Source: Bifidobacterium eulemuris
GTDB taxonomy: Bacteria; Actinomycetota; Actinomycetes; Actinomycetales; Bifidobacteriaceae
DNA length: 64,000 nt
Reading direction: 5' to 3'
NCBI RefSeq assembly: GCF_014898155.1
Contig: NZ_CP062938.1
Coordinates: 2,356,001 to 2,420,000, forward strand
In this document: piece by piece, positions 20,553-42,498 of the stretch
Layout: every line of letters starts with the position of its first letter
How positions within the stretch are numbered: position 1 is the first letter of the stretch
The notes under the pieces: model-generated
What the model saw: the letters and a program-made list of their open reading frames with translations, nothing else
Told to the model about the DNA's origin: nothing
Database searches by the model: none
Program-made: the position numbers and the translations under genes

Positions 20553-22889
20553 TTATCGGGTGATTCGGAAGATGCGTGCCGACGGGACGTCGGTGGTGCC
20601 GGCGGTAAGCGTGACCATGCCATCATCGCCGCGGGTGAAGGACCATGGTTTCGCGCTCGGCGCATGTTCGGGAGCGTCGGGATTGGGGAATACCTGCTCC
20701 AATCCGACGTGGTCCGGCAGTGCGAAGGAACACGAGGCGTCACCGGACCGCCTCCACACCGTCAGATAGCCGTCGTCATTCGAATTCGCAGCGGGTCGAA
20801 GCCCGGCGACCAGCCAGTCGCCGTTGAAGTCAGGCAAGCCCGCAGGCCACCAAGGAACCAGGGATTGCTGCGACTGCAATACCGTGCGGTGCAACGCGAT
20901 GGCGTCCCTCACCAATGCGAGACGATTATCGTCCATGCGGTCGAGGAATCCGGAAAGATACAGGCGGCCAAGTATGCCGGCGGCCAACGTGAGGATCGCC
21001 GTCTCGTCATCCATCTCCTGCTGGGCGTAGCCCCAGTTGCCTTGCTGCTCGGGCAGAATCGTCAGACCGGCGCCGGCGGCGATCGCCGCGTACACCAGAG
21101 GATCGCACTGGTCGGATGTCGACTGCATGTCGAGACGGGACAGTTGGGCGTAATCGGCGCGCATGGCACCGGACGCGCAGTTCTCGATCATCACATCGGG
21201 ATGGCGTCGGCGAAGATCGTCCAACCAATCCAGATAGGCACGGCAGTGGTCCAGCAATCCCTCGCCTGCGGATGAGGCATTCAGCTCGGTGCCGACACCC
21301 GGTATGGTGTTGTAGTCGAATTTGAAGAAGACCACGCCGAATTCGTCGATCAGCCGGTCCACGGTCCGCGTCACATGATCGCGGGCGGCAGGGGAGCGGA
21401 AATCGAGCAGATAACGCCCGGAATCGCTCACGCGCACCCCATGGCGCATGAAGAACGCCTCGTCCGGCAGGCTGCTCGCCAGCGGTGAGCCGATGCCGAC
21501 CACCTCAGGCTCGAGCCACAGGCCCAAGCCCATGCCTCGCACGCGAATCGTCTCGGCCAGGCCAGCCAAGCCCATGTCGCCGAAGCGGTTGTCGGATGCC
21601 TGCCATTCGCCCACCATATTCCACCAGCCGCCGTCGGTGCTGTCGTACCAGCCGGCGTCGATGCAGAACACGTCGGCACCGACCTTCGCCGCGCCGTCGA
21701 TAAGCGGCAGTTCTTTGTCGAGGCGGGGATCGCCGAACAGGGTGTTCATGTAATCGTTATAGACGACCGTATGCTGCATATGCGTGAATTCGTTAGACCG
21801 CCCAAGTTCGATGGCCTTCGCGCGGCGCAGCGCCCTTCTTTGGAACGTCATCTCGGCGTTGGCTTGCTGCCAGTCTCCGGCCGCTATGGCGAACGACACC
21901 GGCACCGTCTCGAAGGGATGTTCCGGGTCGACGGTGGTCCACCACTGGTGATCGCGGTATTCGGGGCCGAAAGCGGCCACGCGCAGTCCAGGGAAGTTCT
22001 CGCCGATCTCCCAAGTCCAGGCGCCGTTGTGTTCGATCTGCCACATCACGGAGCAAACCGGCTTCCGATCAAGCCTCGCGAGTTCGAGAACGCCGTCCGG
22101 CTGCGATGTTCCGGTGCTCCATGTGGAAGTGGAACGCCGCGCGAACACGGAGCTTGAGATGCCCGGGTTGATGGCGAAACTGCGGTCGCGCAGGGTGGTG
22201 TCACGCAAAGGCGCGGCATGCCAGTCGTTTTCCACGGCCCAAGCGGAGTCTGCCCATAATATGGTCGCATGCTCCGTATCGCAGTCGTTGGCGTCCATCG
22301 GCAAGGTGAGATTGCATGAGGATATCGCCTCCACGATGAACGGGGCATCGGCTGAGATGCGGGTGTAGGTCCGCGCCGCGGAGACGCCGGGGTAGGCCTC
22401 GAACACCGAGGTTACGGTGATGCCTGACGGGCATTGCGCCGGGCATGGTGAGCTGTCGGTATGTTCCGTGGCTTCGTCGCCGAACGTCCTCCCGTGCGGT
22501 TGCAGCGCGTCAAAGGACGCCGTTTGTGTGATCTCCAGCCGATATGGGGTCATATCGTCATGCCGCGGCGGCGTTGTTGCGCGGGCGTGGTCGAACCGCA
22601 GCTGCTGTCCGGCCAAGGTTTCGGCCAGCTCTAGACGGTTGTCGTTGGATCCGGTGATGGGGGTCGAGATCTCCACGATCGGTTTGGCGTCGCGTTGTGC
22701 GACGCCATCCGGCGACGTCGGCGTCATACCTTGACCCGACATGCCGATCATACTGACGGGATGATCGGCCGTCGCCTCGAAGGCCAGCGAGATAACGCCG
22801 TTGCCCCAGACGAAACGGCCTTGGTCATCCGGAACGATGCGATGGCCATCGGGGGATGGGCAGGCTGGAGGTGTTGAGAATGCAGGCAA
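20553..22889 (-). CDS. GH36 alpha-galactosidase (copy 1)
   Basis: This 778-residue GH36 enzyme has a beta-sandwich N-terminal domain and a TIM barrel. The nucleophile Asp is in F-F-K-F-D-Y-N and the acid/base Asp in S-T-S-D-Q-C-D; I-D-A-G-W-Y and W-L-E-P-E-V are also family landmarks. It should remove alpha-1,6-galactose from galactomannan-type oligosaccharides in the cytoplasm; no signal peptide is present. The start is read as TTG at 22889 because AAGGAGA lies five bases upstream and the frame further up is the shadow of the preceding gene. It is the last gene of a three-gene operon with two esterases (CE2-like, then SASA-type), 25 bases after the latter. It belongs to a different GH36 branch from copy 2 at 39017. 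Confidence 0.88.
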   Translation of the reverse strand: MPAFSTPPACPSPDGHRIVPDDQGRFVWGNGVISLAFEATADHPVSMIGMSGQGMTPTSPDGVAQRDAKPIVEISTPITGSNDNRLELAETLAGQQLRFDHARATTPPRHDDMTPYRLEITQTASFDALQPHGRTFGDEATEHTDSSPCPAQCPSGITVTSVFEAYPGVSAARTYTRISADAPFIVEAISSCNLTLPMDANDCDTEHATILWADSAWAVENDWHAAPLRDTTLRDRSFAINPGISSSVFARRSTSTWSTGTSQPDGVLELARLDRKPVCSVMWQIEHNGAWTWEIGENFPGLRVAAFGPEYRDHQWWTTVDPEHPFETVPVSFAIAAGDWQQANAEMTFQRRALRRAKAIELGRSNEFTHMQHTVVYNDYMNTLFGDPRLDKELPLIDGAAKVGADVFCIDAGWYDSTDGGWWNMVGEWQASDNRFGDMGLAGLAETIRVRGMGLGLWLEPEVVGIGSPLASSLPDEAFFMRHGVRVSDSGRYLLDFRSPAARDHVTRTVDRLIDEFGVVFFKFDYNTIPGVGTELNASSAGEGLLDHCRAYLDWLDDLRRRHPDVMIENCASGAMRADYAQLSRLDMQSTSDQCDPLVYAAIAAGAGLTILPEQQGNWGYAQQEMDDETAILTLAAGILGRLYLSGFLDRMDDNRLALVRDAIALHRTVLQSQQSLVPWWPAGLPDFNGDWLVAGLRPAANSNDDGYLTVWRRSGDASCSFALPDHVGLEQVFPNPDAPEHAPSAKPWSFTRGDDGMVTLTAGTTDVPSARIFRITR

Positions 22890-22914
22890 GGTCTTCTCCT
22901 TACTGTGGGTGATA

Positions 22915-24768
22915 TCAACGAATGGTAGTCGATGACGCGTGGGGAATGAGATGGGAGAACGGGAATGCCGGGATATCCCAGCGATTGGACAACGGCGGGA
23001 CGCCCCAGCTGGCCCATCCGTAACGGATGCCGGTCGGATGAAGCGTGTCGGGCAAGGGCAACGTGACAAAGGATTCGCCCGGATCATCCGCGGAATGCGT
23101 GATCCGTGCCGCGACCGGATGCCAGACGCCGTCGTCCGTGGAGACTTCGAATCCGGATGCGCCCGCCGGACGGAACGACGGGGTCGATTCCCTCGACTCG
23201 AAGTGCTTCGGAGGCTCGAGGCTGGCGTTCTTGTCGGAGAAGCGTAGTTCTTCGGCATGGTCGAACCGTACGATGACGGATCCTGCGCTTACGTGGACGT
23301 TTGCGTCGCCGGCGTCGTCATCGCTTGCATTCTCGTTGGATGAATACGACCATGACACCGGTTCGGGGACGTCCGCTGGAACGTCGGCGCATCCATAGAT
23401 CCGGTTGAGTGCGGCGTTTGCGAGGCGCTCGCCCGGTGTGCGCTTGTCCGTGGGATGAATGTTGTTGAATTCGCCGCAATCCATGAGTGGAACGGTGTAT
23501 ACGTCGGCGATGGCGAGCGAGACATCCCGCTGTGCCTCGCGCAACACGGGCCAGTAGCGGTGGTCGATGCCCGCATCGAAATCCGATTTGGATATCCATT
23601 GCGGCAGTTGCGCGATGATGAACGGGAGCGTTTCGCCTTCCCACCGTGCGCGCCATTCGCCGACAAGCATCCCGAGCATCGCGCGGTAGTCATCGGCGAA
23701 TCGTTCGTCCTCCTCGCCTTGGTACCACAGGAATCCATGGAGCGCATACGGTGCCACTCGGCAGATCATCGCCTCGAAGGGTCCCGTGGGATGGTATTGA
23801 GAGAACGTGGTCATCGGCGGAGGCCACGGGCATTCGCCATGACGGGCGTTGAGCGTCTCCCAATCGATATCCGGCTGCGACGCCTGATCCGCGGCGATGG
23901 CGGCGTTCCACGCGTCGAAGTCACGTTGCCAGGCATCCGTTTCCTCGTGCATCTGCCGTTCGGTTTTGCCATCGACGATCGCATGATACCGTTCGAGATA
24001 TCCTCGTCCGGACGGAGAGGACTCCAAGGTTGTTTCGCTCATCCAACAACTGATCGATGTGCCGCCCACATAGCAGTCGATGATGCCGATGGGCACGTGC
24101 GTCTCCAGCCGTTCACGCAACCGGTGCGCGAACCAGTAGGCCACCGCGGACATGGCGCCGCTGGTGTCGGGCGCGCAGACGACCCATACGGATTCATTCT
24201 CGAGGCGCGTCAGCTCGTCGCTGACATGCCCGCATTTGGGGGTGTTGAAAAACCGCAGCCCCGGATCGGCGGAATCATTCACCGCCCGCTCGCCGTCCGC
24301 CGCGTTGCGCAACTCGAGCTCCATGTTGCTCTGCCCGCCGGCAAGCCATACCTCGCCCACACCCACATGGTGGTAGACGAGTCTGATCCCGGAGCGGTCC
24401 GTGACGGTGAGCTCGTATCCGTCGCCGGCCTCCAGCGGCGGCAGCTCCACCAGCCAGTTCCCATCGTCTCCGACGGTGCCGCTGGCGACGACGGAATCGC
24501 TGCGGCCGTCGCCGCATAAGGCGAGCATTCCGGATCTCTCGCTCGAGGCCAGCGTGACCATGACGGTGCGTCCGGGCTCTCCGGTGCCGAATACGGGGAT
24601 GGGGCGGCGTCGCTGCAGTACCATGCGGTGCGAGAACACGGCGGCGGGGCGCAACTCCATGGGGGCGTGCGGCTTATCGGACGCCTCCGCCATGTTCGCG
24701 GTGCCGGTGAGATTCGCGCCGGGGGCTGGACCGGTGGTCGCGCCCATATGGGATTCGTCGTGTGACAT
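22915..24768 (-). CDS. SGNH esterase of the sialate O-acetylesterase (SASA) family
   Basis: This is a 617-residue SASA-type (DUF303) carbohydrate esterase. The catalytic Ser is in G-G-Q-S-N-M at about residues 147-152. The F-L-W-Y-Q-G-E-E segment and the C-terminal N-N-I-H-P-T-D-K (catalytic His) complete the family signature. It should remove O-acetyl groups from a sugar or glycan. In this locus the likely substrate is O-acetylated (galacto)glucomannan oligosaccharide rather than sialic acid; that is inference from context. No signal peptide. The start at 24768 has GGAGG upstream; the gap to the preceding esterase gene is only 3 bases, so the two are coupled. Confidence 0.88.
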   Translation of the reverse strand: MSHDESHMGATTGPAPGANLTGTANMAEASDKPHAPMELRPAAVFSHRMVLQRRRPIPVFGTGEPGRTVMVTLASSERSGMLALCGDGRSDSVVASGTVGDDGNWLVELPPLEAGDGYELTVTDRSGIRLVYHHVGVGEVWLAGGQSNMELELRNAADGERAVNDSADPGLRFFNTPKCGHVSDELTRLENESVWVVCAPDTSGAMSAVAYWFAHRLRERLETHVPIGIIDCYVGGTSISCWMSETTLESSPSGRGYLERYHAIVDGKTERQMHEETDAWQRDFDAWNAAIAADQASQPDIDWETLNARHGECPWPPPMTTFSQYHPTGPFEAMICRVAPYALHGFLWYQGEEDERFADDYRAMLGMLVGEWRARWEGETLPFIIAQLPQWISKSDFDAGIDHRYWPVLREAQRDVSLAIADVYTVPLMDCGEFNNIHPTDKRTPGERLANAALNRIYGCADVPADVPEPVSWSYSSNENASDDDAGDANVHVSAGSVIVRFDHAEELRFSDKNASLEPPKHFESRESTPSFRPAGASGFEVSTDDGVWHPVAARITHSADDPGESFVTLPLPDTLHPTGIRYGWASWGVPPLSNRWDIPAFPFSHLIPHASSTTIR

Positions 24769-24771
24769 GGG

Positions 24772-25827
24772 TCAATCCTCCCAGATTTCGGGACCAAACG
24801 AGGCGAGATATGCGATGAGCTCACGGGCCATCTCTTCATGCTCGCTGATGCGGGGATGACCCGGAGTGGCTGATCCGTTGCGGGAGAACAGCAGATGCGT
24901 GACGAGCGGGTCGCCGCTCGCCCGGCAGGCTTCGTCGATGGCCCGGTCCCAGGAGGGGTCGTGTTGCAGTACGGTGGTCATGCATACGATGCGCGCATGG
25001 GGGTACGCGCCGCGCAACGAGCGCAGGAAATCCGTATAACGCGCGCGCCAATGGCGGGCCTGTTCGCCGTCGTAGTCGTCTTTCATGAAATCATTGGGAT
25101 TCGCGTCGTTCTGCCCGATGGCCACGATCACGACGTGCGGGGTATAGCGGGAGAAGTCCCAAGGTTTGGACTCGCCCAAGGCGGGGTTGTATTCGATGCG
25201 GTCCCACATGCTTTCCTGGCCGATGTAGTCGGGGCCGTTGAACCAGCCGATGCCGTCGAGCAGGGAGACGCCGCCTTGGGAGACATCGTGCAGCTGCGCG
25301 CCAAGGTCGCGTGCCGTGATGGCGGCATAGGAGAACCAGGCGTTGCTGTAGGCGCTTAGATCCACATCGGGATCGGGTCGGCCGGCGTAGAGTGTGGCCT
25401 CGTTGCGCTCGCCGCATGAGACGGAGTCTCCAAACACCTCGATGCGTCTGTCTGGGCATGGAGTGGCCGGCGGTAGGATCTCAGCGCCATCGTCGAACTC
25501 AAAACCGAGTATTTGGATATGGTGTTGACCGTCCTGACGTTTGAACACGGTGACCTCGTGTTCGATGTCGGGCAGGTTTTCGGCCAGGGGGATGGTTGTT
25601 TCCGTGCCGTCGAGGGGAATGCGCGCCTTGACTTGGAATCCGTCGATCACCGCGCCTATGTGGCTGTCTCCGTAGGTGCGGGTGTTGACGACACGCATGG
25701 CAAGCGTGGTTCCTGTGAAACGGAACGTCGCCTGCGTGTAGGGATACACCCATATGGGGCGCGTCGGGTCTGTCTCGTCGATTCGTCCCATCGTACGGAT
25801 GGCCGGGTGATTGGGGGAGACGAACAT
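24772..25827 (-). CDS. CE2-like acetyl esterase (jelly-roll plus SGNH domain)
   Basis: This 351-residue protein has an N-terminal beta-sandwich (about residues 1-115) followed by an SGNH hydrolase domain. The catalytic Ser is in F-G-D-S-V-S-C-G-E, the oxyanion Asn in A-I-G-Q-N-D-A-N, and the His probably in G-H-P-R-I-S-E-H. This two-domain order is that of carbohydrate esterase family 2, which deacetylates xylan and mannan sugars. No signal peptide, so it works on imported oligosaccharides. It is the first gene of the CE2-SASA-GH36 operon and diverges from GH1 across the operator at 25907. Start 25827 has AAGGA at better spacing than the ATG at 25830. Confidence 0.85.
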   Translation of the reverse strand: MFVSPNHPAIRTMGRIDETDPTRPIWVYPYTQATFRFTGTTLAMRVVNTRTYGDSHIGAVIDGFQVKARIPLDGTETTIPLAENLPDIEHEVTVFKRQDGQHHIQILGFEFDDGAEILPPATPCPDRRIEVFGDSVSCGERNEATLYAGRPDPDVDLSAYSNAWFSYAAITARDLGAQLHDVSQGGVSLLDGIGWFNGPDYIGQESMWDRIEYNPALGESKPWDFSRYTPHVVIVAIGQNDANPNDFMKDDYDGEQARHWRARYTDFLRSLRGAYPHARIVCMTTVLQHDPSWDRAIDEACRASGDPLVTHLLFSRNGSATPGHPRISEHEEMARELIAYLASFGPEIWED

Positions 25828-25906
25828 CATGGTCCTTCCACTGCAGAGTATCGGTTACGGTTACGCGGTCCTATTGAGTGCGACACACCATCGTCGGCAC
25901 AAGGAC

Positions 25907-25918
25907 TTAACCGGTTAA
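25907..25918. promoter_or_regulatory. Putative LacI operator TTAACCGGTTAA, divergent esterase operon / GH1
   Basis: This perfect 12-bp palindrome lies in the 189-base region between the divergent esterase operon and the GH1 gene. A candidate -10 TACACT for GH1 lies at 25928-25933, so a bound repressor would block that promoter. It is one of four matching sites in the locus. Confidence 0.75.
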
Positions 25919-26016
25919 TACCCATGATACACTGACTTTGTTCGTCGGGTGTCCGGCATGCCGTGGCCCGACCGACAACAATCGACAATGGACATACGAT
26001 TGCGAGGATGGAATCC

Positions 26017-27384
26017 ATGACCACCACATTTCCTGAAGGGTTCCTGTTCGGAACTTCCACCGCCTCATACCAGATCGAGGGCGCCGTCAATGAAGGAGGG
26101 AGATGCCCGTCCATCTGGGACACGTACTCACATACCCCGGGCAAAGTGCTCAACTCGGACACCGGTGACATAGCCTGCGATTCCTACCACCGTTGGCAGG
26201 AGGACATCGCGATGCTCGCGGATCTCGGAGTCGATGCCTATCGGTTCTCCGTGGCGATGCCGCGCGTGATGCCGGTCGAGAACGGTGCGCCGAACGCCGA
26301 AGGTCTTGATTATTACGAGCGTTTCGTCGATATGCTGCTCGCCAAGGGCATCGCCCCCATCGTGACGTTGTACCACTGGGACCTGCCCCAGTATCTCGGG
26401 GACAAGAACGGGTGGCTCAACCGTGAAACCGCATACCGCCTAGGCGAATATGCCGGCATCGTGGCGGGGCGGCTCGGCGATCGGGTGCACACATACATCA
26501 CACTTAACGAGCCCTGGTGCTCCTCATACCTGAGCTACGGAGGCACCGAGCACGCGCCGGGTCTCGGGTTGGGCCCCGGCGCGTTCCCGGCGGTGCACCA
26601 CCTCAATCTCGCGCATGGTCTGATGTGTCAGGCCGTGCGGGCGGAGGTTGGTGAGGCGGCCGATCTGTCCGTCACTCTGAATCTGCAGATGAACCGCGGC
26701 GATGCGGATGCCGTGCATCGTCTCGATCTCATCGCCAACCGCGCGTTCCTCGATCCGATGCTGCGTGGATACTACCCGGATGAGCTGTTCGCCATCACCC
26801 ACGGCATCTGCGATTGGAACTTCGTCCAAGATGGGGATCTGGAGCAGATCCACCAGCCGATCGACGTTCTGGGCATCAACTACTACTCCACCAACCTGCT
26901 GGCCATGTCGGACCGCCCGCAGTTCCCGCAATCCACCGAAGCGTCCACCAACCCTGGTGCCTCCGATGTGGATTTCCTACCCACCGAAGGTCCCCATACC
27001 GAAATGGGGTGGAACATCGATCCCAAGGGACTGACCGATCTTCTGGTGCGAGTGTGGGATGACTACCGTCTGCCCCTCATCGTCACGGAAAACGGCATCG
27101 CCGTCGTCGACACGCTGGAGACGGATGGCAACGGCGACAAGGCCGTGCATGACGTCAAGCGCGTCGACTACTACCGCCGCCATCTCGCCGCCGCTCTCGA
27201 CGCCATCGATCAAGGCGTCGACCTTAGGGGCTATTGCGCCTGGTCGTTGATGGACAACTTCGAATGGGCCTGGGGATACGCGCGCCGGTTCGGCCTCGTC
27301 TATACGGATTACGAGACGTTGGAGCGCATCCCGAAAGACAGCTTCCTGTGGTATCGCGACGTCATCGCGAAACGGGGCCTGTGA
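26017..27384 (+). CDS. GH1 beta-glucosidase/beta-glycosidase
   Basis: This is a 455-residue glycoside hydrolase family 1 enzyme. The N-terminal F-L-F-G-T-S-T-A-S-Y-Q-I-E-G signature, the acid/base Glu in T-L-N-E-P-W and the nucleophile Glu in V-T-E-N-G-I are all present. It should cleave terminal beta-linked glucose (possibly also mannose or galactose) from imported oligosaccharides, fitting a glucomannan substrate; exact specificity cannot be read here. No signal peptide. The start at 26017 places M-T-T-T-F-P-E-G at the usual family N-terminus, with GAGGA about eight bases upstream. It is monocistronic, under the shared operator at 25907. Confidence 0.92.
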   Translation: MTTTFPEGFLFGTSTASYQIEGAVNEGGRCPSIWDTYSHTPGKVLNSDTGDIACDSYHRWQEDIAMLADLGVDAYRFSVAMPRVMPVENGAPNAEGLDYYERFVDMLLAKGIAPIVTLYHWDLPQYLGDKNGWLNRETAYRLGEYAGIVAGRLGDRVHTYITLNEPWCSSYLSYGGTEHAPGLGLGPGAFPAVHHLNLAHGLMCQAVRAEVGEAADLSVTLNLQMNRGDADAVHRLDLIANRAFLDPMLRGYYPDELFAITHGICDWNFVQDGDLEQIHQPIDVLGINYYSTNLLAMSDRPQFPQSTEASTNPGASDVDFLPTEGPHTEMGWNIDPKGLTDLLVRVWDDYRLPLIVTENGIAVVDTLETDGNGDKAVHDVKRVDYYRRHLAAALDAIDQGVDLRGYCAWSLMDNFEWAWGYARRFGLVYTDYETLERIPKDSFLWYRDVIAKRGL

Positions 27385-27389
27385 CAATC

Positions 27390-29332: not shown

Positions 29333-29410
29333 GGTGCGTTGCCTCCATCTGCGCAGGAATCGTCTATAACCGTTGTTGTTCTTCGCTACATTCAAGAATA
29401 CCGAAAGAGC

Positions 29411-29422
29411 ATAACCGATTAA
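29411..29422. promoter_or_regulatory. Putative LacI operator (ATAACCGATTAA), ABC exporter gene
   Basis: This imperfect copy of the TTAACCGRTTAA palindrome lies 79 bases upstream of the GTG start of the ABC gene. On the minus strand it overlaps a possible -35 TTAATC, 16 bases before TATTCT. Confidence 0.6.
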
Positions 29423-29708
29423 GTAAAACCGTAAGAAAAAGATGCTAAAAGACGTTTTTATATGAAAAAGAGATGAAAAAGTACTGAATCATACTGTCCG
29501 GCACACCAGGCTGCCGTCGGTGAAAACCGCTGGGGACCATGCCTTCAGACAGCTGTTCGTGTAGCGTCCGCAGCGGGGATGAATAGTGTGAAAACGTTGT
29601 AATATAGCGGTTTTCTGTGAGGGTGGCTTATGATGGATCAGGGGATGTGAAGGCTCTATGCCATGGATGTCGCGCCTCTGCGTATTTTTGGGTGGACTCG
29701 CCGACAAC
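29423..29708. other. AT-rich intergenic region with second operator-like motif
   Basis: The gene-free stretch 29333-29898 carries the two TTAACCG-type operators at its sides and a locally AT-rich segment (about 29420-29480). It also holds GAAAACGTTGTAAT at 29590-29603, which matches the motif repeated before pyrD and the gal operon. No coding frame with a ribosome binding site is seen. Confidence 0.5.
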
Positions 29709-29745
29709 TTAACCGGTTGACATGTTGCGGCGTGTTGTGTTAAGC
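29709..29745 (+). promoter_or_regulatory. Promoter of the SBP-permease operon with overlapping LacI operator
   Basis: The operator TTAACCGGTTGA (29709-29720) overlaps a -35 box TTGACA (29717-29722), followed after 17 bases by TTAAGC (29740-29745). Repressor binding would occlude the -35. The transcript leader before the SBP gene would be about 150 bases. Confidence 0.65.
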
Positions 29746-33365: not shown

Positions 33366-36047
33366 ATGACCCGCACCCCCAACACTTTCCGTCCCATTCG
33401 TGAGCATTGGACCGTTCGCGCGCTGAATCCGCAGGTGGCGCCTGAAAACCTGCGAGAGGCCATAGCCGCCGGCATCCCCGCAACCGTGCCGGGTGAGGTC
33501 ACCCTTGACCTAGTGGCGGCCGGTCTGATCGATGAGCCGTTCGACGGCGACAACGAGACCCGCCAGCAGTGGATCGGCGATGTGGATTGGCAGTTCGAAA
33601 CCACCTTCGCATGGCATGACGCGGGCGCAACCCGTCACGATCTTGTCGCCTTAGGTCTGGATACGGTCGCTTCGTTGGCGATCAACGGCCAGCCCATCGG
33701 ACATGCCGAGAACTACCATCGTTCTTACCGATGGGATGCCCGGGCGGCGCTGCGTGAGGGGGAGAACACGCTCACCGTGACGTTCGCCTCATCCGTGCGC
33801 GAATCCGACCGTCGGGAGCAGGAGCTCGGATACTGGCCCCACACCGAACACCACGCGTTCAACCAGCTGCGCAAGCCCTCCTACCAGTTCGGATGGGACT
33901 GGGGCATCGACGTGGCCAACGCCGGCATGTGGCGGGACATCGGCATCGATTCCTGGTCCGACGTGCGGCTTAAGGCCGTTCGGCCGATCGCGCGTGTGCT
34001 TCCGGACGGCACCGGTGCGCTCGACGTCACCGTGGAGATCGAGCGCGAGGGCCAAGGACGGGTTATGACCTCATCACAGGCTCACGCAGGACAGTGCCCG
34101 GTGCCGTTCCGCGTTGCTGTGAAGGGACATGGTGCCGATCTCACCGTCGTCGGTGAAATCGAGCAAGGGCGGGATACCGCCGAAATCAGTGTCACCCTGC
34201 CCCAGATCCAACTCTGGTGGCCTGTCGGCTATGGCGATCAGCCGTTGTACGACGTGGCCGTCGACGCCGGCGACGGTGCGGCCGAATGGAGCGGACGTAT
34301 CGGATTCCGCACCGTTCGAGTGGATACGCGGGCCGACGAGGTCGGCAGGCCGTTCCAGATCTACGTCAATGATGTGCCCGTGCATGCCAGAGGATGGAAC
34401 TGGGTTCCGGTGGATGCCTTCCTCTCCCGCGGGGACGCGTTGGTGGAGCCGCGCATGCGCGATCTCGTCGAGTCGAACGCCAATATGGTGCGCGCCTGGG
34501 GCGGAAGCATTTACGAATCCGACGAATTCTACGATTTGTGCGACGAATTGGGTGTGATGGTCTGGCAGGACTTCATGCTCGCCTGCGCCGCCTATCCGGA
34601 GGATGCCGGCACCAAGGCCGAGATCGAGGCCGAGGCGCGTGAGCATATCACCAGATTGGCGCCGCATCCGAGCTTGGTGGTCTGGAACGGTTCGAATGAG
34701 AACTACGTCGCCTACAGCGAATGGGGAGGCGTCAAGCAGGCTTTGCGCGATGACGATCTGCCCTCCAACGCCTACGGATATGGTGAGAAGGATTGGGGCG
34801 ACTACTACTACTCCGATCTGTTCCCCCGACTGCTGTCTCAGCTCGATTCAGGTCACACCGTCTATCTGCCGAGCTCCCCGATGAGCTTCACCCGATTCGT
34901 CGACGCCAATAAGGATGTCGACGGAACCATGCACATCTGGGATGTGTGGAACCGGGTCGACTATCGCGCCTACGCGAACTATACGCCGCGTTTCGCCGAC
35001 GAATTCGGCTATCAGGCGCCGCCGGCCTTCTCCACCCTCACCAGAGTGGTGCATGACGAGAAGCTCGATCCGTTCGGCAAGCAGATGCTGGTCCATCAGA
35101 AGGCTTCCGGAGGCAATATCAAGTTGGCGCGCGGCATGCGCTCGCATCTGACGCCGGGGCATATCGACGACGTCAGCTATCGTGCCGACGGAACCCGCGA
35201 CTGGCTCATCCCCACCGATTACTGGTCCGATGTCGAGGATTGGCATTGGGCGTGCCAGCTGCAGCAGGCCCATGCGATCCGTTTCGGTGTGGAGCATATG
35301 CGTTCGCTTGAGCCGGTGAACGCGGGAACGCTGATCTGGCAGCTGAACGACGACTGGCCCGTGGTGAGTTGGGCCGCCGTGGACTACTACGGGCATCGTA
35401 AACCCCTGTGGCACGCCTCGCGCGACTTCTTCGCCCCTCGTCTGGCCACCATCCAACCGCGTCTGTCCGAACAGGAGCGTGAGGATAGAAGCTGGGAGGG
35501 CAATCGTGTGGAGCCGGACCGCCTGGCGCTGGTGGTTCTCAACGATGCGAGGAAGCCGTGGCGGGGTGTTTGGACCGTCGAACGTCGCACATTGAGTGGT
35601 GAGGTATTGGCCTCGCAGCATTTCGAGGTGGCGATGGATGCCGTTTCCCATGAGACCCTGTGGCTGGACGACGCGGTGGCCGGATTCGGCGACCCCGCGA
35701 ACGAGCTGATCGTCGCCGAATGCGCGGATGGCAGCATCTCCCGCGCCGTGTTCAACCCCGCCGAGGTCATCGACCAGTCGCTTGATCCCGCGCCTCTGGA
35801 GGCTGTGGTCGAGACGACGGCGGACGGCTACGACCTCACCGTCACTGCGCGATCCTATGCGCGAGACGTGTTCTGCATGGTCGACAAAGTCGATGCCGAC
35901 GCCCGCATCGATGGCGGTATGGTCACGTTGCTGCCCGGCGAGACGGTGACCTGGCACATTCGTGCGGCGAAGGGACTTGTCCCCGAGGCGTTCATCGCCG
36001 CGAACGTGTTGCGCTGCGCCAATGATTTAAAGGCGGCGGCACGCTGA
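33366..36047 (+). CDS. GH2 beta-mannosidase (copy B)
   Basis: This 893-residue GH2 enzyme is closely related to copy A at 526 over its whole length. The acid/base is in W-N-G-S-N-E-N and the presumed nucleophile in A-D-E-F-G-Y-Q-A-P-P. It should release mannose from manno-oligosaccharides, as for copy A. It has no signal peptide. It lies 11 bases after the permease gene and is the last enzyme of the SBP-permease-GH2 operon. AAGGATAGGAT precedes the start codon. A weak hairpin follows at 36071. Confidence 0.92.
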   Translation: MTRTPNTFRPIREHWTVRALNPQVAPENLREAIAAGIPATVPGEVTLDLVAAGLIDEPFDGDNETRQQWIGDVDWQFETTFAWHDAGATRHDLVALGLDTVASLAINGQPIGHAENYHRSYRWDARAALREGENTLTVTFASSVRESDRREQELGYWPHTEHHAFNQLRKPSYQFGWDWGIDVANAGMWRDIGIDSWSDVRLKAVRPIARVLPDGTGALDVTVEIEREGQGRVMTSSQAHAGQCPVPFRVAVKGHGADLTVVGEIEQGRDTAEISVTLPQIQLWWPVGYGDQPLYDVAVDAGDGAAEWSGRIGFRTVRVDTRADEVGRPFQIYVNDVPVHARGWNWVPVDAFLSRGDALVEPRMRDLVESNANMVRAWGGSIYESDEFYDLCDELGVMVWQDFMLACAAYPEDAGTKAEIEAEAREHITRLAPHPSLVVWNGSNENYVAYSEWGGVKQALRDDDLPSNAYGYGEKDWGDYYYSDLFPRLLSQLDSGHTVYLPSSPMSFTRFVDANKDVDGTMHIWDVWNRVDYRAYANYTPRFADEFGYQAPPAFSTLTRVVHDEKLDPFGKQMLVHQKASGGNIKLARGMRSHLTPGHIDDVSYRADGTRDWLIPTDYWSDVEDWHWACQLQQAHAIRFGVEHMRSLEPVNAGTLIWQLNDDWPVVSWAAVDYYGHRKPLWHASRDFFAPRLATIQPRLSEQEREDRSWEGNRVEPDRLALVVLNDARKPWRGVWTVERRTLSGEVLASQHFEVAMDAVSHETLWLDDAVAGFGDPANELIVAECADGSISRAVFNPAEVIDQSLDPAPLEAVVETTADGYDLTVTARSYARDVFCMVDKVDADARIDGGMVTLLPGETVTWHIRAAKGLVPEAFIAANVLRCANDLKAAAR

Positions 36048-36150: not shown

Positions 36151-37194
36151 ATGGCGCTGTTGAAATCGAAGGTCACGATTTCCGACGTCGCGAAAGCTGC
36201 AGGAGTGTCCAACAGCGCTGTCTCTTATGCGTTGAACGGCAAGCCCGGGGTTTCGGAGAAGACCCGGGACAAAGTGCTCAAAGTCGCCGACAGCATGGGG
36301 TGGAAGCCCAACAGCGCCGCCAAGGCGCTGTCCGATGCCAGCAGCCGTGCCATCGGCCTGGCGCTGGCCTATAGTCCGGAGACCATTTCCGTCGATTCGT
36401 ATTCGATGGCGCTGTTCTCCGGCATGTGCACCGAACTTGAGCGGAACAACTATTCGCTGATGTTGCGCATCATCCCCGTCGGAGGCGACACCATGTCCAT
36501 CCACCGTGACTGGATCGCGGATGGCAGCGTGGACGGCGTGGTCATCACCAATGTGGAGATCGGCGATCCCCGTATCGAATTGTATAAGCAGCATCCTGAG
36601 GTGCCGGTGGTGGCGTTGGCGGATCCGTCCGTCACCGGCGGTCTTCCCACGTTGACCAGCGATGATGTCGCGGCGGCGCGGTTGGTCGTGGACTTCCTTC
36701 ACGAGCTGGGGCATACGCATATCGCGCGTGTGGCCGGTCCGGAGCGCTACGGCCATACCTTCGGCCGCGATCGTGCGTTTATCGAGGAGACTTCGGAGAT
36801 GGGCATGCACTACGACTGCCTGCACGGCGATTATTCGCCGGAGGCGGGCGCTGACTGCACAGCCCGTCTGATGGCTTTCTCCGAACCTCCCACGGCCATC
36901 GTCTACGATAGCGACAGCATGGCCATCGCCGGCCTGCAGACGGCCGTCGCCAAAGGTATCGCCGTGCCCGAGCAGCTGTCCATCGTCTCATGGGACGATT
37001 CGTTCGTCTGCCGGGCGGTGACGCCGGGGCTGACGGCGTTGAAACGCAACGTGCCCGCTTCGGGGAAGCAGTTGGTGCCGATGCTGTTGCGGCAGATCGC
37101 CGGCGAACAGGTCGAGAACGAACTCGAGGATCCCTATGAGCTGATTCCTCGCGGCTCCACGGCCGCCGCCTGCGTGCCCGGCGGCGTTCGCTGA
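36151..37194 (+). CDS. LacI-family transcriptional regulator of the mannan locus
   Basis: This 347-residue regulator has an N-terminal LacI helix-turn-helix, T-I-S-D-V-A-K-A-A-G-V-S-N-S-A-V-S-Y-A-L at residues 9-28, followed by the hinge K-P-N-S-A-A-K-A-L and a periplasmic-binding-protein-like effector domain. It is a likely repressor of the four TTAACCGRTTAA palindromes in this locus, which are of LacI operator type, released by a manno-oligosaccharide or mannose-related effector. Both points are inference from position and motif. AAGGAGGGAG lies seven bases before the ATG. No operator copy was found directly in front of this gene, so it may not be strongly autoregulated. Confidence 0.9.
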   Translation: MALLKSKVTISDVAKAAGVSNSAVSYALNGKPGVSEKTRDKVLKVADSMGWKPNSAAKALSDASSRAIGLALAYSPETISVDSYSMALFSGMCTELERNNYSLMLRIIPVGGDTMSIHRDWIADGSVDGVVITNVEIGDPRIELYKQHPEVPVVALADPSVTGGLPTLTSDDVAAARLVVDFLHELGHTHIARVAGPERYGHTFGRDRAFIEETSEMGMHYDCLHGDYSPEAGADCTARLMAFSEPPTAIVYDSDSMAIAGLQTAVAKGIAVPEQLSIVSWDDSFVCRAVTPGLTALKRNVPASGKQLVPMLLRQIAGEQVENELEDPYELIPRGSTAAACVPGGVR

Positions 37195-37299: not shown

Positions 37300-37938
37300 C
37301 TATTGCTCGGTGGCTCTCGCCGTGATCATGCCCGCACGCAGCATGAGGTATACGACGATGTAGGCGGTGACGGCCGAAAGCAGCAGTCCATAGAAAAATA
37401 CGGTGAAGGCGAGCCCGCCCGGAACGGCGACGGCGATGATCCATGGCAACGCGTTGAGGAACAACGTCGCCACCGTGGTCAACGGGTGCGCGACGGCGAC
37501 ACGGAACGACTGCCGGATCTGCGCCATCGCGGACAGCGTGCTGCGGGCCATGACCGGGAACACGAAGCCGAATCCGGCCCATGCCACCGTCGCCACCGCT
37601 ATCGTCGCGCCGTACACCACCGGCGCGTATGGCGCATCCGGCACGCCTTTCGTCAACCACCATAGGTCGAACGACGCCAGGGCGACGAAGGCCAGAGCGA
37701 TCAGCGTCAATGCCAGGGAGACCGTGAACCGACGACGGAACGCGGCAAGGAACGCGCGCAGCACATGCGCGTCGTCGTTCTCATGCAGACGTCGCGTCAC
37801 TTCGTACATCGCGCCGGTCGACGCGCCGATGGTGACGATCGGCAGACAGCAGATGATCCAAGCGACGTTGATCATCGCCAGGTCGCCGATGCGTGACATG
37901 AACTCATTGAACGGGCTGTCTTGCTTGAATATCTGCAT
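37300..37938 (-). CDS. DUF624 (YesL-like) membrane protein
   Basis: This is a 212-residue integral membrane protein with about five helices. The N-terminal F-N-E-F-M-S-R-I-G-D-L and the following I-C-C-L-P-I-V-T-I-G-A-S segment are the DUF624/YesL signature. Family members are found in many Gram-positive glycan-utilisation loci next to ABC importers; their role is not established, possibly assisting the transporter. GAGGAG lies four bases upstream of the start. It follows the gene of unknown function at 38037 on the minus strand by about 100 bases and probably shares its operator at 38860. Confidence 0.85.
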   Translation of the reverse strand: MQIFKQDSPFNEFMSRIGDLAMINVAWIICCLPIVTIGASTGAMYEVTRRLHENDDAHVLRAFLAAFRRRFTVSLALTLIALAFVALASFDLWWLTKGVPDAPYAPVVYGATIAVATVAWAGFGFVFPVMARSTLSAMAQIRQSFRVAVAHPLTTVATLFLNALPWIIAVAVPGGLAFTVFFYGLLLSAVTAYIVVYLMLRAGMITARATEQ

Positions 37939-38036: not shown

Positions 38037-38804
38037 CTATGGGATGAGAAAGGACACGAAACGACGTGCGGTGTCTTGATTGCGGGAATCCTGTGCGAGG
38101 CCGATAATCGCATCGGAATCGGCGGATTCAAGCGTATCCCAGATTGTGGAGGTCTTAAGTCTCAATCCGAATGGCGCTTCCGCGCCTTTGCCGGATCCGT
38201 TGTAGTCGGGGTCGGCGTCATCGTCGTCATCGAATCCCGCGTATGTGACGAACAGATCGGATAATTCTTTGACTTGTTTCGATTCCAACGATGCGTTCAG
38301 GTCGGTGAGATAGCCGTATCCGCAGAGGGTGCTGAAATCATCGGGGGAGGCGATGATGATGTCGATTTCGTCGCTGGCGAGCATGGACTGCAGTTTGTTC
38401 AGACCACTGTCATCCATATCGAAGTTCGCGTCGATGCGAACGCCGCCATCGCGTCCCTCGGGCAGGTCGAACGCCGATGCCACACGCTGCTGCAGGGTCT
38501 GCGCATCCTGGGTGGAAATGACGTCGCCGAATACCGCGACATACAGCTTTGGCGGCACCGATGGTGTGAGCAGCTGTATCGCCAGATATAGGGCTATGCC
38601 GATTACGGCCAGTGCCGCAACCGTGCGTGCCAATAGCTGGTCGCGGAAATACGCCCATTTGCGGTTCCAAGGCAGCGAACGGAGTATGTGGAGACGGGAG
38701 CGTTTGTGGTAGGCGATGTCTTGGGACAACGTGTCGATGGCCTCCGCCTGTCGTGCGGAGATGGCGTCGCGATTCCGGTTCGGTGGAGAGGCCGTTGATG
38801 CCAT
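38037..38804 (-). CDS. Membrane-tethered protein of unknown function, possibly binding-protein-like
   Basis: I do not recognise a family. The 255-residue protein has a cytoplasmic N-terminus, one membrane helix (about residues 62-81) and an extracellular domain. The domain begins L-Y-V-A-V-F-G-D-V and contains an acidic run D-D-D-D-D-A-D-P-D. The alternation of strands and the S-M-L-A-S-D-E-I-D-I-I-I-A-S-P-D segment suggest part of a solute-binding-protein fold anchored by its N-terminus. AAAGGAGG precedes the ATG. It is divergent from the GH36 gene across a LacI operator and upstream of DUF624, so all are likely induced by the same sugar. Confidence 0.7.
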   Translation of the reverse strand: MASTASPPNRNRDAISARQAEAIDTLSQDIAYHKRSRLHILRSLPWNRKWAYFRDQLLARTVAALAVIGIALYLAIQLLTPSVPPKLYVAVFGDVISTQDAQTLQQRVASAFDLPEGRDGGVRIDANFDMDDSGLNKLQSMLASDEIDIIIASPDDFSTLCGYGYLTDLNASLESKQVKELSDLFVTYAGFDDDDDADPDYNGSGKGAEAPFGLRLKTSTIWDTLESADSDAIIGLAQDSRNQDTARRFVSFLIP

Positions 38805-38859
38805 GGTGCCTCCTTTGGAATGAATATGTCTCCACTATAACGCAAAAAACGCATGTCAC

Positions 38860-38871
38860 TTAACCGATTAA
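38860..38871. promoter_or_regulatory. Putative LacI operator TTAACCGATTAA, divergent promoter
   Basis: This site lies between the divergent unknown-DUF624 and GH36-GH26 units. On the plus strand TATAGT follows at 38874-38879. On the minus strand a TATAGT with a TAAGTG -35 at 17-base spacing overlaps the operator. One bound dimer could repress both directions. Confidence 0.72.
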
Positions 38872-39016
38872 TGTATAGTGTTTCTTGGTAAAGGTATGCC
38901 GTTGCTGAACGTCTCGTCAAAGTCCCGCAACGTAGGCCGGACGCGTCGGCCATGATGCGTCCTCGGAAAGGGCCGAGGACGGATATGGCGAGGCATGCAG
39001 GAAGGAGAGTACGACG

Positions 39017-41209
39017 ATGTTCGATCAAGGCCCGCACAAGGTGCTTCGGCGTGACGGCGTATGTGTGGTGGTCAAGACGCCTCCCGATCAGATGCCGCAG
39101 GTGGAGTATTGGGGACGTGACCTCGGCGGCGAGCTGTTGGCGGACGAGGCGGCGCTTGCCGCGCTTGACGCCATGACCTTGAAGGACACCCCGCCTAACA
39201 AGCCCGACGCCGCATGGCGCCCGTCGTTGTTGCCGCAAGGTGCCGAGGGGTGGGGCGGTAGGCCGGGATTGGAGGCCCACCGTGGCGGACTGCCGGCATT
39301 CGCCAGCTGGACCGCCATCGATTATGCCTCACAGGCCAATACCAAGCTGTCGATCGAAGCTGTGGATGAGATGAACGGACTTCGGTTGGAGATCATGCTG
39401 TCGCTGGAGCAAGGCGGCCTGCTCGTCGTCCGACATGCACTGACCAATACGGGGGCGGATGGCGCCGGTGCCGAACCGTTGATCGTCAATTGGCTCGATG
39501 GCGTGATGCCGTGCCCGCGTCGTGTCGACACGCTCACCCAGTTCACTGGACGTTGGCCTTTGGAAAAACAGCCGTTCGTCGCCTCCATGCCGGTCGGCTC
39601 CGTCACACGAGACTGTCGACGTGGCAAGACAGGGCATGATTCACCGTGGCTGTTCATCGCATCCGTGGGCGAGCCGCGCTGGGAAACCGGTGAGATCTGG
39701 GCCTGCCATCTTGCATGGAGCGGTAACCAGACCTATCGCGTGGACAACCTGCCTCAGCACGAGCCCTTGATCGGTGCCGGGGAACTGGTCGGGCCGGCGG
39801 AGATTCGCCTGTCGACGGGGGAACGGTACGAGTCGCCGGAGGTGTGTTTCTCCTATTCGGACTGCGGACTTGACGGCATGGCCGCACGATTCCATACATG
39901 GCTGCGCGCCATGCCGAAGCGGGTCGATCCCGTTTCGAATCCAAGGCCGTTCACCCTCAACACTTGGGAGGCTGTGTATTTCAAGCAGGACGAAGCCACG
40001 CTGATGCGTTTGGCTGACCGCGCCGCACAGGCGGGGGTGGAGCGGTTCGTGCTCGACGACGGCTGGTTCCATAAGCGCCGCGACGACACGCGCGGTCTGG
40101 GGGATTGGTGGGTGGATCCCGAGGTGTGGCCGAATGGACTCAACGCCCTGGCCGATCATGTGCATGCCCTGGGTATGCAGTTTGGACTGTGGTTCGAACC
40201 GGAGATGGTCAATCTCGATTCCGATCTCGCCCGCGTGCATCCCGATTGGATTCTTGCCAGACCTTCGGCCGTGCCGAACCGCGGCGACCTATCCTACCGC
40301 AGCCAGTACGTGTTGGATCTGGCGAATCCAGACGCGTATGCCCATATCCATGACCAGATGGTCGCCTGCGTGCGCGATCTTGGTGTGGATTACATCAAGT
40401 GGGATCACAACCGTGAAGTCACCGAGCCGGTGCATCAGCGTGATGGTCGATATGGACTGCATAATCAGACTCTGGCCTGTTACCGGCTGTTCGACGAGCT
40501 TAAAGCCGAATTCCCCGGATTGGAAATCGAGAGCTGCTCGTCCGGCGGTGCCCGTACCGATGCTGGGATTCTGCGGCATGCCGACCGCATTTGGGCTTCC
40601 GATTCCAATGATCCGCGGGACCGCGTCGATATTCAGCGGTTCACCGAGCTCATCGTGCCTCCTGAGATGATCGGCGCCCATGTAGGGCCGAGTCCGGCGC
40701 ATTCCACGGGGCGCGCCACTGAAGTGAGTTATCGGGCCGCCGTGTCGTTGACCGGATGCGCCGGTTTTGAATGGAACATCCTGGAATGCGATGATGACGA
40801 AGTGGCGAGGCTTGCCGCATTCGTCGCATTGTATAAGGAACTGCGTGGTTTGCTGCATACGGGCCGGATCCTGCATGCCGACCTTGCGGATCCATCTTTG
40901 CGCGCCCGCGGCGTCGTCGACGCGGAGGGTGAGCACGCCGTGTGGGTTGTGGCGAGTGTGGACAACATCGCCGATTGGCTGGCCGAACGGTTGTATGTGC
41001 CGGGACTGGATCCACGGCGAGACTACCGCATCCGATTGCGTGAGGAGGTGGGGGCCGCCAAATGGGGCTGGATCACACCGCAGTGGCTGACCATGGCACG
41101 GCAGTCCGAAGGTTTCGTGGCTTCGGGCCGTCTGCTCGCCGAAGTGGGCCTGCAGCTGCCTAACCTGTGGCCGATGCAGGCCATCATCCTCGAATTCGAC
41201 GCGCAGTGA
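39017..41209 (+). CDS. GH36 alpha-galactosidase (copy 2)
   Basis: This 730-residue GH36 enzyme has a length and domain order typical of bacterial tetrameric alpha-galactosidases. The barrel contains V-L-D-D-G-W-F, W-F-E-P-E-M-V, the nucleophile Asp in Y-I-K-W-D-H-N-R and the acid/base Asp in W-A-S-D-S-N-D; the E-S-C-S-S-G-G-A-R loop is also conserved. It should remove alpha-galactosyl side groups or cleave raffinose-family sugars in the cytoplasm; no signal peptide. AAGGAGAG precedes the start codon. It is followed by the GH26 gene after 86 bases, and the pair is controlled from the operator at 38860. It is clearly different in sequence from copy 1. Confidence 0.93.
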   Translation: MFDQGPHKVLRRDGVCVVVKTPPDQMPQVEYWGRDLGGELLADEAALAALDAMTLKDTPPNKPDAAWRPSLLPQGAEGWGGRPGLEAHRGGLPAFASWTAIDYASQANTKLSIEAVDEMNGLRLEIMLSLEQGGLLVVRHALTNTGADGAGAEPLIVNWLDGVMPCPRRVDTLTQFTGRWPLEKQPFVASMPVGSVTRDCRRGKTGHDSPWLFIASVGEPRWETGEIWACHLAWSGNQTYRVDNLPQHEPLIGAGELVGPAEIRLSTGERYESPEVCFSYSDCGLDGMAARFHTWLRAMPKRVDPVSNPRPFTLNTWEAVYFKQDEATLMRLADRAAQAGVERFVLDDGWFHKRRDDTRGLGDWWVDPEVWPNGLNALADHVHALGMQFGLWFEPEMVNLDSDLARVHPDWILARPSAVPNRGDLSYRSQYVLDLANPDAYAHIHDQMVACVRDLGVDYIKWDHNREVTEPVHQRDGRYGLHNQTLACYRLFDELKAEFPGLEIESCSSGGARTDAGILRHADRIWASDSNDPRDRVDIQRFTELIVPPEMIGAHVGPSPAHSTGRATEVSYRAAVSLTGCAGFEWNILECDDDEVARLAAFVALYKELRGLLHTGRILHADLADPSLRARGVVDAEGEHAVWVVASVDNIADWLAERLYVPGLDPRRDYRIRLREEVGAAKWGWITPQWLTMARQSEGFVASGRLLAEVGLQLPNLWPMQAIILEFDAQ

Positions 41210-41295
41210 GAGGGATATCCGAACGTCGTGCCTGCGGTATGCCATGGGCGGATGCCAGACAAGTGACGGAAACACCGGAAAAGAAAGGAAACGCT

Positions 41296-42498
41296 ATGAA
41301 TGCGCAATCGCAGGTCTCCAACCATGCCGTGAACGGGGAGGGCGTCGATACGCTGGCGAAGCATGCTCCCATTCCGGTCGATCCGGACCTTTCGCCGCGC
41401 GCCAGAGCGCTGTTCGACGCGCTGCATCGGCATTCGGGCGAATTCGCGATGGTCGGCCATCAGGACGAGACGTTCTGCGTGCATGATGATGGCCATGACT
41501 CGGACGTTCTCGCCGTGACCGACGATTATCCCGCGGTATGGGGATTCGATCTCGGGCGAATCGAACTCGGCTGGAATCGGAATATCGACCGCATCCCCTT
41601 CGTGGATATCCGTCAACAGATGCGCCGCGCCTATGACATGGGTGCCGTAGTGACCGTGAGCTGGCACTCGGTCAATCCGATCACGGAGCGGGGATACGGC
41701 GAGAATATGGCACTCGGTTCGGTGACGGCCGTATTGCCGGGCGGGCGATCGCATGACAAATACTGTGAGTGGCTCGACCGGGTGGCGGATTTTCTGGTTT
41801 CGGTGACCGACGAGGATGGAATGCCGATTCCAGTGGTGTTCCGCCCCTATCACGAGCACACGGGTACCTGGTTCTGGTGGTGCCCGGGCTCGTCCATGGA
41901 GACCACCGATACGTCAAGCGACGATTATGCCGCCCTGTGGCGTATGACCGTGGAATACCTGCGCGACGTGCGTGGCCTGCATAATCTGCTGTATGCGTAT
42001 TCCCCCGATCGAAGCCGCATCGATATGTCCTCCACAGCCTCCCGCGAGCATGATTATCTGTTCGGCTACCCGGGCGACGCGTATGTGGACGTGTTGGGGC
42101 TTGACGACTACTGGGACATCGACCAGGATTTGGCCGTCACCTCCCCGGCGGACCGTCACCGTGATCTGACGACGATGCTGACGATGGTCGGAGGGATGTC
42201 CCGTGAGCGGGGGAAACTCGCCGCCGCCACTGAGATCGGATCGCCAAGGGAATTCGCCGCGGCATTCGCCGATGATTCATCCCGCCCTTGGACCGGCTAT
42301 CTGCTGTCTGCGGCGACGTGCAATGAGGACGCCCGACGTGTGTTGTGGTATCTGCCATGGCGAAACTCCGAGGAAGCGGTCGGAACCGGCGCTTATGGCA
42401 CTCCGGCCGTCGGATCCCCATACGCCGCGGATTTCCGTGATTTCGCGCGCGATGGGTTCATGCGTCTTGCCGGGGAAGTGCCGCCGATGTACGAATGA
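41296..42498 (+). CDS. GH26 beta-mannanase/mannosidase, predicted cytoplasmic
   Basis: This is a 400-residue GH26 clan-A hydrolase. The acid/base Glu is in F-R-P-Y-H-E-H-T-G and the nucleophile Glu in A-A-T-E-I-G-S-P; W-H-S-V-N-P and W-F-W-W-C also match the family. GH26 members cleave internal or terminal beta-1,4-mannosidic bonds. The protein lacks a signal peptide, a membrane segment and a carbohydrate-binding module, so it probably shortens imported manno-oligosaccharides rather than extracellular mannan. The start at 41296 has AAAGGAAA upstream; longer in-frame starts reach into the preceding GH36 gene without support. Confidence 0.9.
   Translation: MNAQSQVSNHAVNGEGVDTLAKHAPIPVDPDLSPRARALFDALHRHSGEFAMVGHQDETFCVHDDGHDSDVLAVTDDYPAVWGFDLGRIELGWNRNIDRIPFVDIRQQMRRAYDMGAVVTVSWHSVNPITERGYGENMALGSVTAVLPGGRSHDKYCEWLDRVADFLVSVTDEDGMPIPVVFRPYHEHTGTWFWWCPGSSMETTDTSSDDYAALWRMTVEYLRDVRGLHNLLYAYSPDRSRIDMSSTASREHDYLFGYPGDAYVDVLGLDDYWDIDQDLAVTSPADRHRDLTTMLTMVGGMSRERGKLAAATEIGSPREFAAAFADDSSRPWTGYLLSAATCNEDARRVLWYLPWRNSEEAVGTGAYGTPAVGSPYAADFRDFARDGFMRLAGEVPPMYE

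Follow-up and report, generated by a model that had tools for sequence, protein, structure and literature searches.

A probable beta-mannan-oligosaccharide utilization locus of bifidobacterial type, with its own LacI regulator, in Bifidobacterium eulemuris

The stretch of DNA considered here (the window) comprises 64,000 nucleotides, positions 2356001-2420000 of the single-contig 2.92-Mb genome of Bifidobacterium eulemuris, and coordinates of the locus are given as window positions. The block at 20.5-42.5 kb within it is, very probably, a beta-mannan-oligosaccharide utilization locus of the bifidobacterial type, i.e. that of Bifidobacterium animalis subsp. lactis ATCC 27673, carrying a LacI-family regulator of its own. 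What can be read directly from the DNA is a set of gene families (glycoside hydrolases, GH; carbohydrate esterases, CE; an importer with its solute-binding protein, SBP), their order, a palindrome repeated between them, and kinship to a binding protein whose ligands have been characterized. A Pfam scan of 30 open reading frame (ORF) readings from the window recovered every family that a preliminary description of the sequence had placed within these 22 kb, and in the same positions (Table 1).

That the substrate class is beta-manno-oligosaccharides is well supported and likely to be right, because the SBP matches the mannan-binding protein BlMnBP1 and because the gene order equals that of a locus in a near relative of ATCC 27673. 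Against the BlMnBP structures of that strain the SBP gives E values of 5e-154 to 1e-149 (5.2e-154 for the BlMnBP1 structure 6i5r of B. animalis subsp. lactis), while the next-best structure reaches only 6e-17; there are 176 identities to BlMnBP1 in the first 303 aligned residues, and five of the six BlMnBP1 tryptophans in that stretch are aligned with the window SBP. The entry 6fuv is taken here as BlMnBP2, following a review; the PDB list says BlMnBP1, and the 6fuv sequence differs from the other entries. The ligands reported for BlMnBP1 and BlMnBP2 are mannotriose, mannobiose and galactosylated forms, and the transporter is upregulated on mannan (PMC8106489). The importer genes of the locus include no ATPase, and presumably a shared ATPase encoded elsewhere energizes the importer.

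As to gene order, the genome G018, which is close to B. animalis subsp. lactis, has in L118-L119 two tandem SBPs with 87% identity to BlMnBP1 (over 306 residues) and 94% to BlMnBP2 (over 103 residues), in the arrangement SASA-CE2 / GH1 / SBP-SBP-permease-permease-GH2-LacI / DUF624-unknown / GH36b. The order and strands in the window are the same, with three additions: an exporter between GH1 and SBP, GH36a after SASA, and GH26 after GH36b. The likeness to the ATCC 27673 system, in which a beta-mannosidase and a beta-glucosidase likewise accompany the SBP (PMC8106489, PMC8262883), thus consists of an SBP homologous at about 1e-150 and, judged through this near relative, of order and strands; the window differs in having one SBP rather than two, in adding GH26, GH36a and the ABC exporter, and, again as compared through the near relative, in having no GH5 mannanase next to the locus. 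Matches to PF00150 elsewhere in the genome are a GH53 enzyme, an apiosidase-like enzyme and an unassigned 407-residue GH5, and the only GH26 of the genome is the presumed cytosolic one of the locus. With a BlMnBP-type SBP, a permease pair and GH2 and GH1 enzymes in the shared order, the block fits the B. lactis-type class of bifidobacterial mannan loci, and the intracellular use of decorated manno-oligosaccharides proposed in the preliminary description gains support from the sequence.

In such a system the SBP would catch manno-, galactomanno- and glucomanno-oligosaccharides produced extracellularly and the permeases would bring them in; cytoplasmic CE2 and SASA (CE20-like) esterases would then strip acetyl groups, GH36b would take off alpha-galactose, GH26 would act in exo mode and split mannobiose off the chain, GH2b would yield mannose and GH1 beta-glucose, while in the absence of inducer LacI would occupy TTAACCGRTTRA palindromes at four promoters. 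A hydropathy scan found no signal-like N-terminal segment in GH2a, GH36a, SASA, CE2, GH1, GH2b, GH36b or GH26, in agreement with the earlier statement that the enzymes lack signal peptides; strongly hydrophobic stretches were seen in the SBP (N-terminal), the permeases, the DUF624 protein and the product of the gene at 38037-38804.

The solved structures closest to GH26 are those of CjMan26C (4e-72) and BoMan26A (4e-54), both mannobiohydrolases (PMC5217682), and its catalytic Glu residues align with theirs. In BoMan26A, loop 2 (residues 86-103) shuts off the site past subsite -2, and the endo enzymes with which it was compared have a shorter one (PMC5217682); by our own numbering of a printed alignment, loop 2 of the window GH26 equals that of BoMan26A in length and keeps Asp99. 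All 14 short bifidobacterial GH26 sequences aligned agree in loop length and in this Asp; the long ones (813 and 836 residues) have insertions in loop 2 and, by eye, signal-like N-termini. GH26 therefore resembles the exo-mannobiohydrolases, and an exo mode is what we infer for it. An Arg-Glu salt bridge in loop 8, present in the window GH26, was dropped as a sign of exo mode because it is not kept in all 14 short orthologs. BoMan26A is likely periplasmic (PMC5217682), whereas the window GH26, showing no signal peptide, is presumably cytosolic. GH1 scores 532 bits on TIGR03356, for which the beta-glucosidase cut-off is 478.5.

The intergenic stretches of the block share the palindrome TTAACCGRTTRA, in four copies (Table 1). 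Allowing three mismatches, a search gave eight strand matches, i.e. four sites, against a mean of 1.28 in shuffled sequence, and none of 100 shuffles reached eight; a strict pattern occurs six times in the 2.92-Mb genome, three of these within the locus, and a reversed-pattern control three times. Operator-like sites recur in four other species, B. pullorum subsp. saeculare, B. hapali, B. biavatii and B. ramosum (L013/L103, L014, L016, L017), where they lie ahead of the SBP, ahead of the 38037 gene, and either between CE2 and GH1 or ahead of GH1. The copies at the promoters of the locus suggest one putative LacI regulon, in which binding of the palindrome by this LacI is a prediction.

Distribution was surveyed in 112 Bifidobacterium genomes, taking as neighbourhood the DNA within 25 kb of the SBP and scoring genes on separate contigs as misses. 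The SBP (E 1e-80) is found in 27 of them, any GH26 in 25, SASA (E 1e-20, weak paralogues included) in 54 and CE2 (E 1e-20) in 36. Among the 27 genomes with the SBP, SASA neighbours it in 21, CE2 in 19, GH26 in ten (all ten being short forms) and GH36a in three. Since these genes are common near the SBP, and the GH26 there all short, a cytosolic GH26 together with the esterase pair must be regarded as ordinary in the genus, and not, as had been supposed, as something rare among bifidobacteria.

A further 14 bifidobacterial stretches around CE2 or SASA came from genomes without the mannan SBP. In seven of these, and in L109, a CE2, SASA and GH1 cassette goes with an Opp/Dpp-type importer carrying two ATPases (L125, L126, L127, L128, L130, L131, L132 and L109; SBP_bac_5 was seen by Pfam in L125 and L109). 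GH2 is present in seven of the eight, that of L128 possibly lying beyond the stretch, and the palindrome stands ahead of both the importer and CE2/GH1 in seven, and ahead of the importer only in L109; L125-L127 are about 99% identical there, and the eight cassettes are not independent. Of the others, L129, L133 and L134 resemble decaying mannan cassettes, L136 and L137 hold remnants of GH2 or CE2, L138 has CE2 with another importer, and L135 carries SASA alone, from which it follows that SASA is not confined to mannan cassettes.

The two GH36 enzymes are of different types. DDGW is present in 28 of 29 GH36b rows, some of them copies of one gene, the remaining row being a fragment without the motif; DAGW is present in three of three GH36a sequences. 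The second Asp of DDGW contacts galactose O6. On the model NF053652 for the beta-L-arabinopyranosidase BAD_1528, GH36a scores 1235 bits (cut-off 1100) and GH36b 85, on which ground a pair of alpha-galactosidases was rejected, should the two GH36 of the preliminary description have been meant as such. GH36a is accordingly predicted to be of the type of BAD_1528, the first GH36 to be characterized as a beta-L-arabinopyranosidase (PMC10688797). Whether coffee mannan could supply acetylated galactomannan carrying arabinose was also considered; the passages of literature found gave this no support. Homologues of GH36a (at least 52% identical) occur in 30 of the 112 genomes; in G064 and G075, both without the mannan SBP, GH36a is in the cassette.

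Such a GH36a, above the BAD_1528 cut-off and found in the cassette of G000, G067, G074, G064 and G075, could speak for a broader scavenging of hemicellulose, in which several acetylated oligosaccharides, including xyloglucan- or arabinose-bearing ones, would be taken up. The occurrence of SASA outside a clear mannan cassette (L135) would fit this too, as would the fact that CE20 enzymes possessing the ancillary domain have been linked to loci for xyloglucan, xylan and pectin, with one cluster linked to a locus bearing GH2 and GH26 (PMC12313940). However, Pfam finds no xylosidase, xylanase or fucosidase in the block, its SBP is of the mannan type, and CE2-SASA is accompanied by GH1, and mostly by GH2, even where the importer is different, so that broader scavenging appears improbable. 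Within the mannan-oligosaccharide reading no role is assigned to GH36a or to the exporter.

At the left edge of the window lie GH130 and a second GH2 (GH2a), which had earlier been counted as members of the pathway. GH130 was rejected in that capacity, as it has its own importer, is closest to beta-1,2 enzymes and goes without the palindrome: both genes sit behind a separate SBP and two permeases (L002:15694-18897; cluster to 19911), no palindrome was found at them, and the core with a CG centre, allowing two mismatches, has no match across L002-L004 (57 kb, 1.6 kb of which belong to the window). The structures nearest to GH130 are 3qc2, 5a7v and relatives, of which we take 5a7v to be a beta-1,2-mannosidase, and its top NCBIfam models, each below cut-off, are beta-1,2-mannosidase and beta-1,2-mannobiose phosphorylase, models that the GH130 enzymes of Lachnospiraceae rank differently. 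The window GH130, the only one in the whole genome, is thus nearest to beta-1,2 types in structures and models, and not to beta-1,4-mannooligosaccharide phosphorylases. The left-edge cluster (L002:15694-19911 plus window 1-3171) is perhaps an importer and degrader of beta-1,2-mannosides. Elsewhere in the genome an AGE-family enzyme, nearest to D-mannose isomerase though below cut-off, might provide a route for mannose.

It has also to be asked whether both GH2 enzymes and GH130 could act jointly on N-glycan cores or yeast beta-1,2-mannosides, making this a system for scavenging host or fungal mannosides. GH130 is closest to beta-1,2-mannosidases of the BT3780 type, and GH2a and GH2b are 53% identical; but the importer genes of the GH130/GH2a cluster and its lack of the palindrome set it apart, the main block has an SBP of the mannan type, and no GH38, GH85 or GH20 turned up when 30 ORF readings of the window were scanned with Pfam, the rest of the genome lying outside that search. 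Scavenging of this kind seems very improbable indeed.

Several observations nevertheless weigh against the mannan-oligosaccharide reading or parts of it. At the place of BlMnBP1 Asn63 (Gly in BlMnBP2), a position linked to mannobiose affinity (PMC8106489), the window SBP has His, as read by eye from the printed alignment, and for this reason its ligand range, or its affinity for mannobiose, may differ. GH36a suggests arabinose and not galactose, and GH2b hits general GH2 and mannosidase Ig models alone. As for the palindrome, a 12-base core with two mismatches gives four matches against a mean of 1.68, and eight of 100 shuffles have as many; the strict pattern was derived from the sites themselves; B. 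hapali has 16 loose-core hits in 21 kb, some of them intragenic; and the B. lactis-like loci L118, L119 and L122-L124 have one copy or none.

The preliminary description drew a functional parallel with the mannan loci of Roseburia, and for the importer and CE2 this parallel turns out to be one of homology as well as function. From 387 stretches with a relative of the SBP, a scan of named genomes kept the 80 best, 20 from Bifidobacteriaceae and 60 from other taxa (Lachnospiraceae, Treponema etc.); the resulting counts are lower bounds, many loci being clipped by contig ends or by the 10-kb flank. The window SBP is 56-64% identical to SBPs of loci outside Bifidobacteriaceae, and the window CE2 44-52% identical to the CE2 of 16 of these loci. 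In the 20 Bifidobacteriaceae loci GH2 is present in 17, CE2 in 11, SASA in ten and GH26 in six, and epimerase, GH130 and CE17-like genes in none; the 60 others have epimerase in 31, GH130 in 35, CE17-like genes in 22, GH2 in two, CE2 in 19 (16 strong, three weak at 25-31%) and GH26 in five (all at 23-27%), and SASA in none. Queries for epimerase, GH130 and CE2 were taken from the Roseburia hominis locus L069, their families being confirmed by Pfam. The CE17-like queries are GDSL proteins of the same locus, called CE17 only from their place beside CE2 and their GDSL domain; such a query found no match in the 112 Bifidobacterium genomes, and in a control it did find matches in five of six genomes behind Lachnospiraceae-type loci. 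With RiMULL, RhMosUL and FpMULL of Roseburia and Faecalibacterium (PMC8262883, PMC9784577) the window shares homologous SBP, permeases and CE2, also GH36 and LacI, and deacetylation and breakdown that would take place in the cytosol; those systems are phosphorolytic (epimerase, two GH130) and use CE17, whereas the window is, by its gene families, hydrolytic (GH2, GH26) and has SASA. Of the marks of the Lachnospiraceae-type (MULL) class, SBP and CE2 are present in the locus, and the epimerase, the two GH130 and CE17 are not.

The nearest structures to SASA, 7kmm and 9h4u, are taken to be XacXaeA and Fl8CE20_II. GQSN and N-x-H are kept in 14 of 14 aligned SASA orthologs. With these CE20 esterases and with sialate O-acetylesterases the window protein shares the SASA domain and the GQSN and D/N-x-H blocks, which are those described for CE20 (PMC12313940). 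It is roughly 120 residues shorter than CE20 between the matched stretches (a comparison pieced together from two chains), and from this difference in length it probably has no ancillary domain. The word "mannan" is absent from the passages of the CE20 paper PMC12313940, and a literature search gave no paper on SASA in mannan loci, its coverage being partial, so that these genes may have been noticed before. In B. reuteri (L015:2355-5509) one frame joins CE2 and the first part of SASA, the remainder of SASA being in the next frame, which could be either a sequencing slip or a real split.

CE17, a 2-O-specific mannan esterase said to be described in Bacillota only, removes 2-O-acetyls, while CE2 acts on 3-O, 4-O and 6-O (PMC13276840). 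Given this difference, and given the lack of a bifidobacterial match to the CE17-like query, one may guess that SASA takes over the CE17 role, removing the acetyls that CE2 leaves. It could then be that bifidobacteria have rebuilt the gut mannan system on a shared core of import and CE2, with hydrolysis in place of phosphorolysis, SASA in place of CE17 (2-O on mannose), sometimes an Opp-type importer, and one LacI operator. This wider proposal is a tentative one, somewhat more doubtful than not, the more so as CE25 is likewise 2-O-specific (PMC13276840).

Table 1 Features of the locus and of the left edge of the window.
Feature	Position	Strand	Basis and remarks
GH36a, predicted beta-L-arabinopyranosidase (BAD_1528) type	20553..22889	-	Pfam Melibiase; NCBIfam NF053652; longest ORF to 23258
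SASA-domain acetylesterase, CE20-like	22915..24768	-	Pfam PF03629; nearest structures 7kmm, 9h4u
CE2 acetylesterase	24772..25830	-	Pfam CE2_N + GDSL; PDB 2wao, 2waa
Putative LacI operator CTTAACCGGTTAAT, CE2/GH1 intergenic	25906..25919		
GH1 beta-glucosidase	25963..27384	+	Pfam; TIGR03356; likely start near 26017
MsbA-like single-chain ABC exporter	27497..29395	-	Pfam ABC_tran + ABC_membrane; top NCBIfam model MsbA, below cut-off
Putative LacI operator, 3 mismatches, ahead of exporter	29410..29423		
Putative LacI operator CTTAACCGGTTGAC, ahead of SBP	29708..29721		
Lipoprotein-like SBP, BlMnBP1 homologue	29815..31296	+	Pfam SBP_bac_1; 6i5r; likely start near 29899
ABC permease 1	31400..32464	+	Pfam PF00528
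ABC permease 2	32461..33354	+	Pfam PF00528
GH2b, beta-mannosidase type	33366..36047	+	Pfam GH2_N2, Ig_mannosidase
LacI-family regulator	36151..37194	+	Pfam
DUF624 membrane protein	37300..37938	-	Pfam PF04854
Conserved, probably membrane-anchored protein	38037..38804	-	Homologues in related loci
Putative LacI operator CTTAACCGATTAAT, between 38037 gene and GH36b	38859..38872		
GH36b, alpha-galactosidase type	39017..41209	+	Pfam Melibiase, GH36N, GH36C; DDGW motif
GH26, mannobiohydrolase type	41167..42498	+	Pfam PF02156; likely ATG start near 41296
GH130 tail	2-511		Left window edge; Pfam
GH2a, second GH2	478-3171		Left window edge; Pfam

CE2, SASA and GH36a all run leftward, separated by 3 and about 25 bases, and have the appearance of a single operon, of which GH36a would be the last gene; GH1 runs in the opposite direction to this group, SBP, permeases, GH2b and LacI are collinear, and so are GH36b and GH26. 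The likely start of GH36a is a TTG with AGGAG ahead of it, later than the start of the longest ORF; those of GH1 (ATG) and GH26, judged from ribosome-site-like sequence, are internal to the longest ORFs, and that of the SBP (ATG) lies downstream of the longest-ORF start. The conserved gene at 38037-38804 is missing from the list in the preliminary description, and its product has no Pfam or NCBIfam match; homologues are found in 12 of the 20 Bifidobacteriaceae loci, as is the pair it forms with DUF624, and in ten of the 60 loci of other taxa. The pair adjoins mannan importers, in some cases outside Bifidobacteriaceae too. A homologue of the exporter (48%) lies about 7 kb from the mannan SBP in L069, which is from a metagenome-assembled genome. 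Between the two sugar clusters, window 3467-20527 encodes a Wzz-like protein with a nucleotide-binding domain, DUF4012 and DUF4916 proteins, an APP1-type phosphatidate phosphatase and a prolyl oligopeptidase, genes that may in part have a surface-polysaccharide function.

The locus is a variant of mannan-oligosaccharide loci of a known kind. In one study B. adolescentis, B. animalis lactis Bl-04 and B. dentium fermented acetylated galactoglucomannan (PMC6344601); what is fresh here is the pattern of SASA for CE17, the palindrome-marked putative regulon and the exchange of importers. For the 2-O deacetylation step the SASA gene, co-occurring with CE2, provides a concrete candidate. With a repeated operator and importers swapped within one gene order, induction and substrate can be tested across many species, a point of interest for wood and konjac mannans as prebiotics. 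If the rebuilt-system proposal were true, there would be a mannan role for the SASA/CE20 family and a second type of importer for manno-oligosaccharides.

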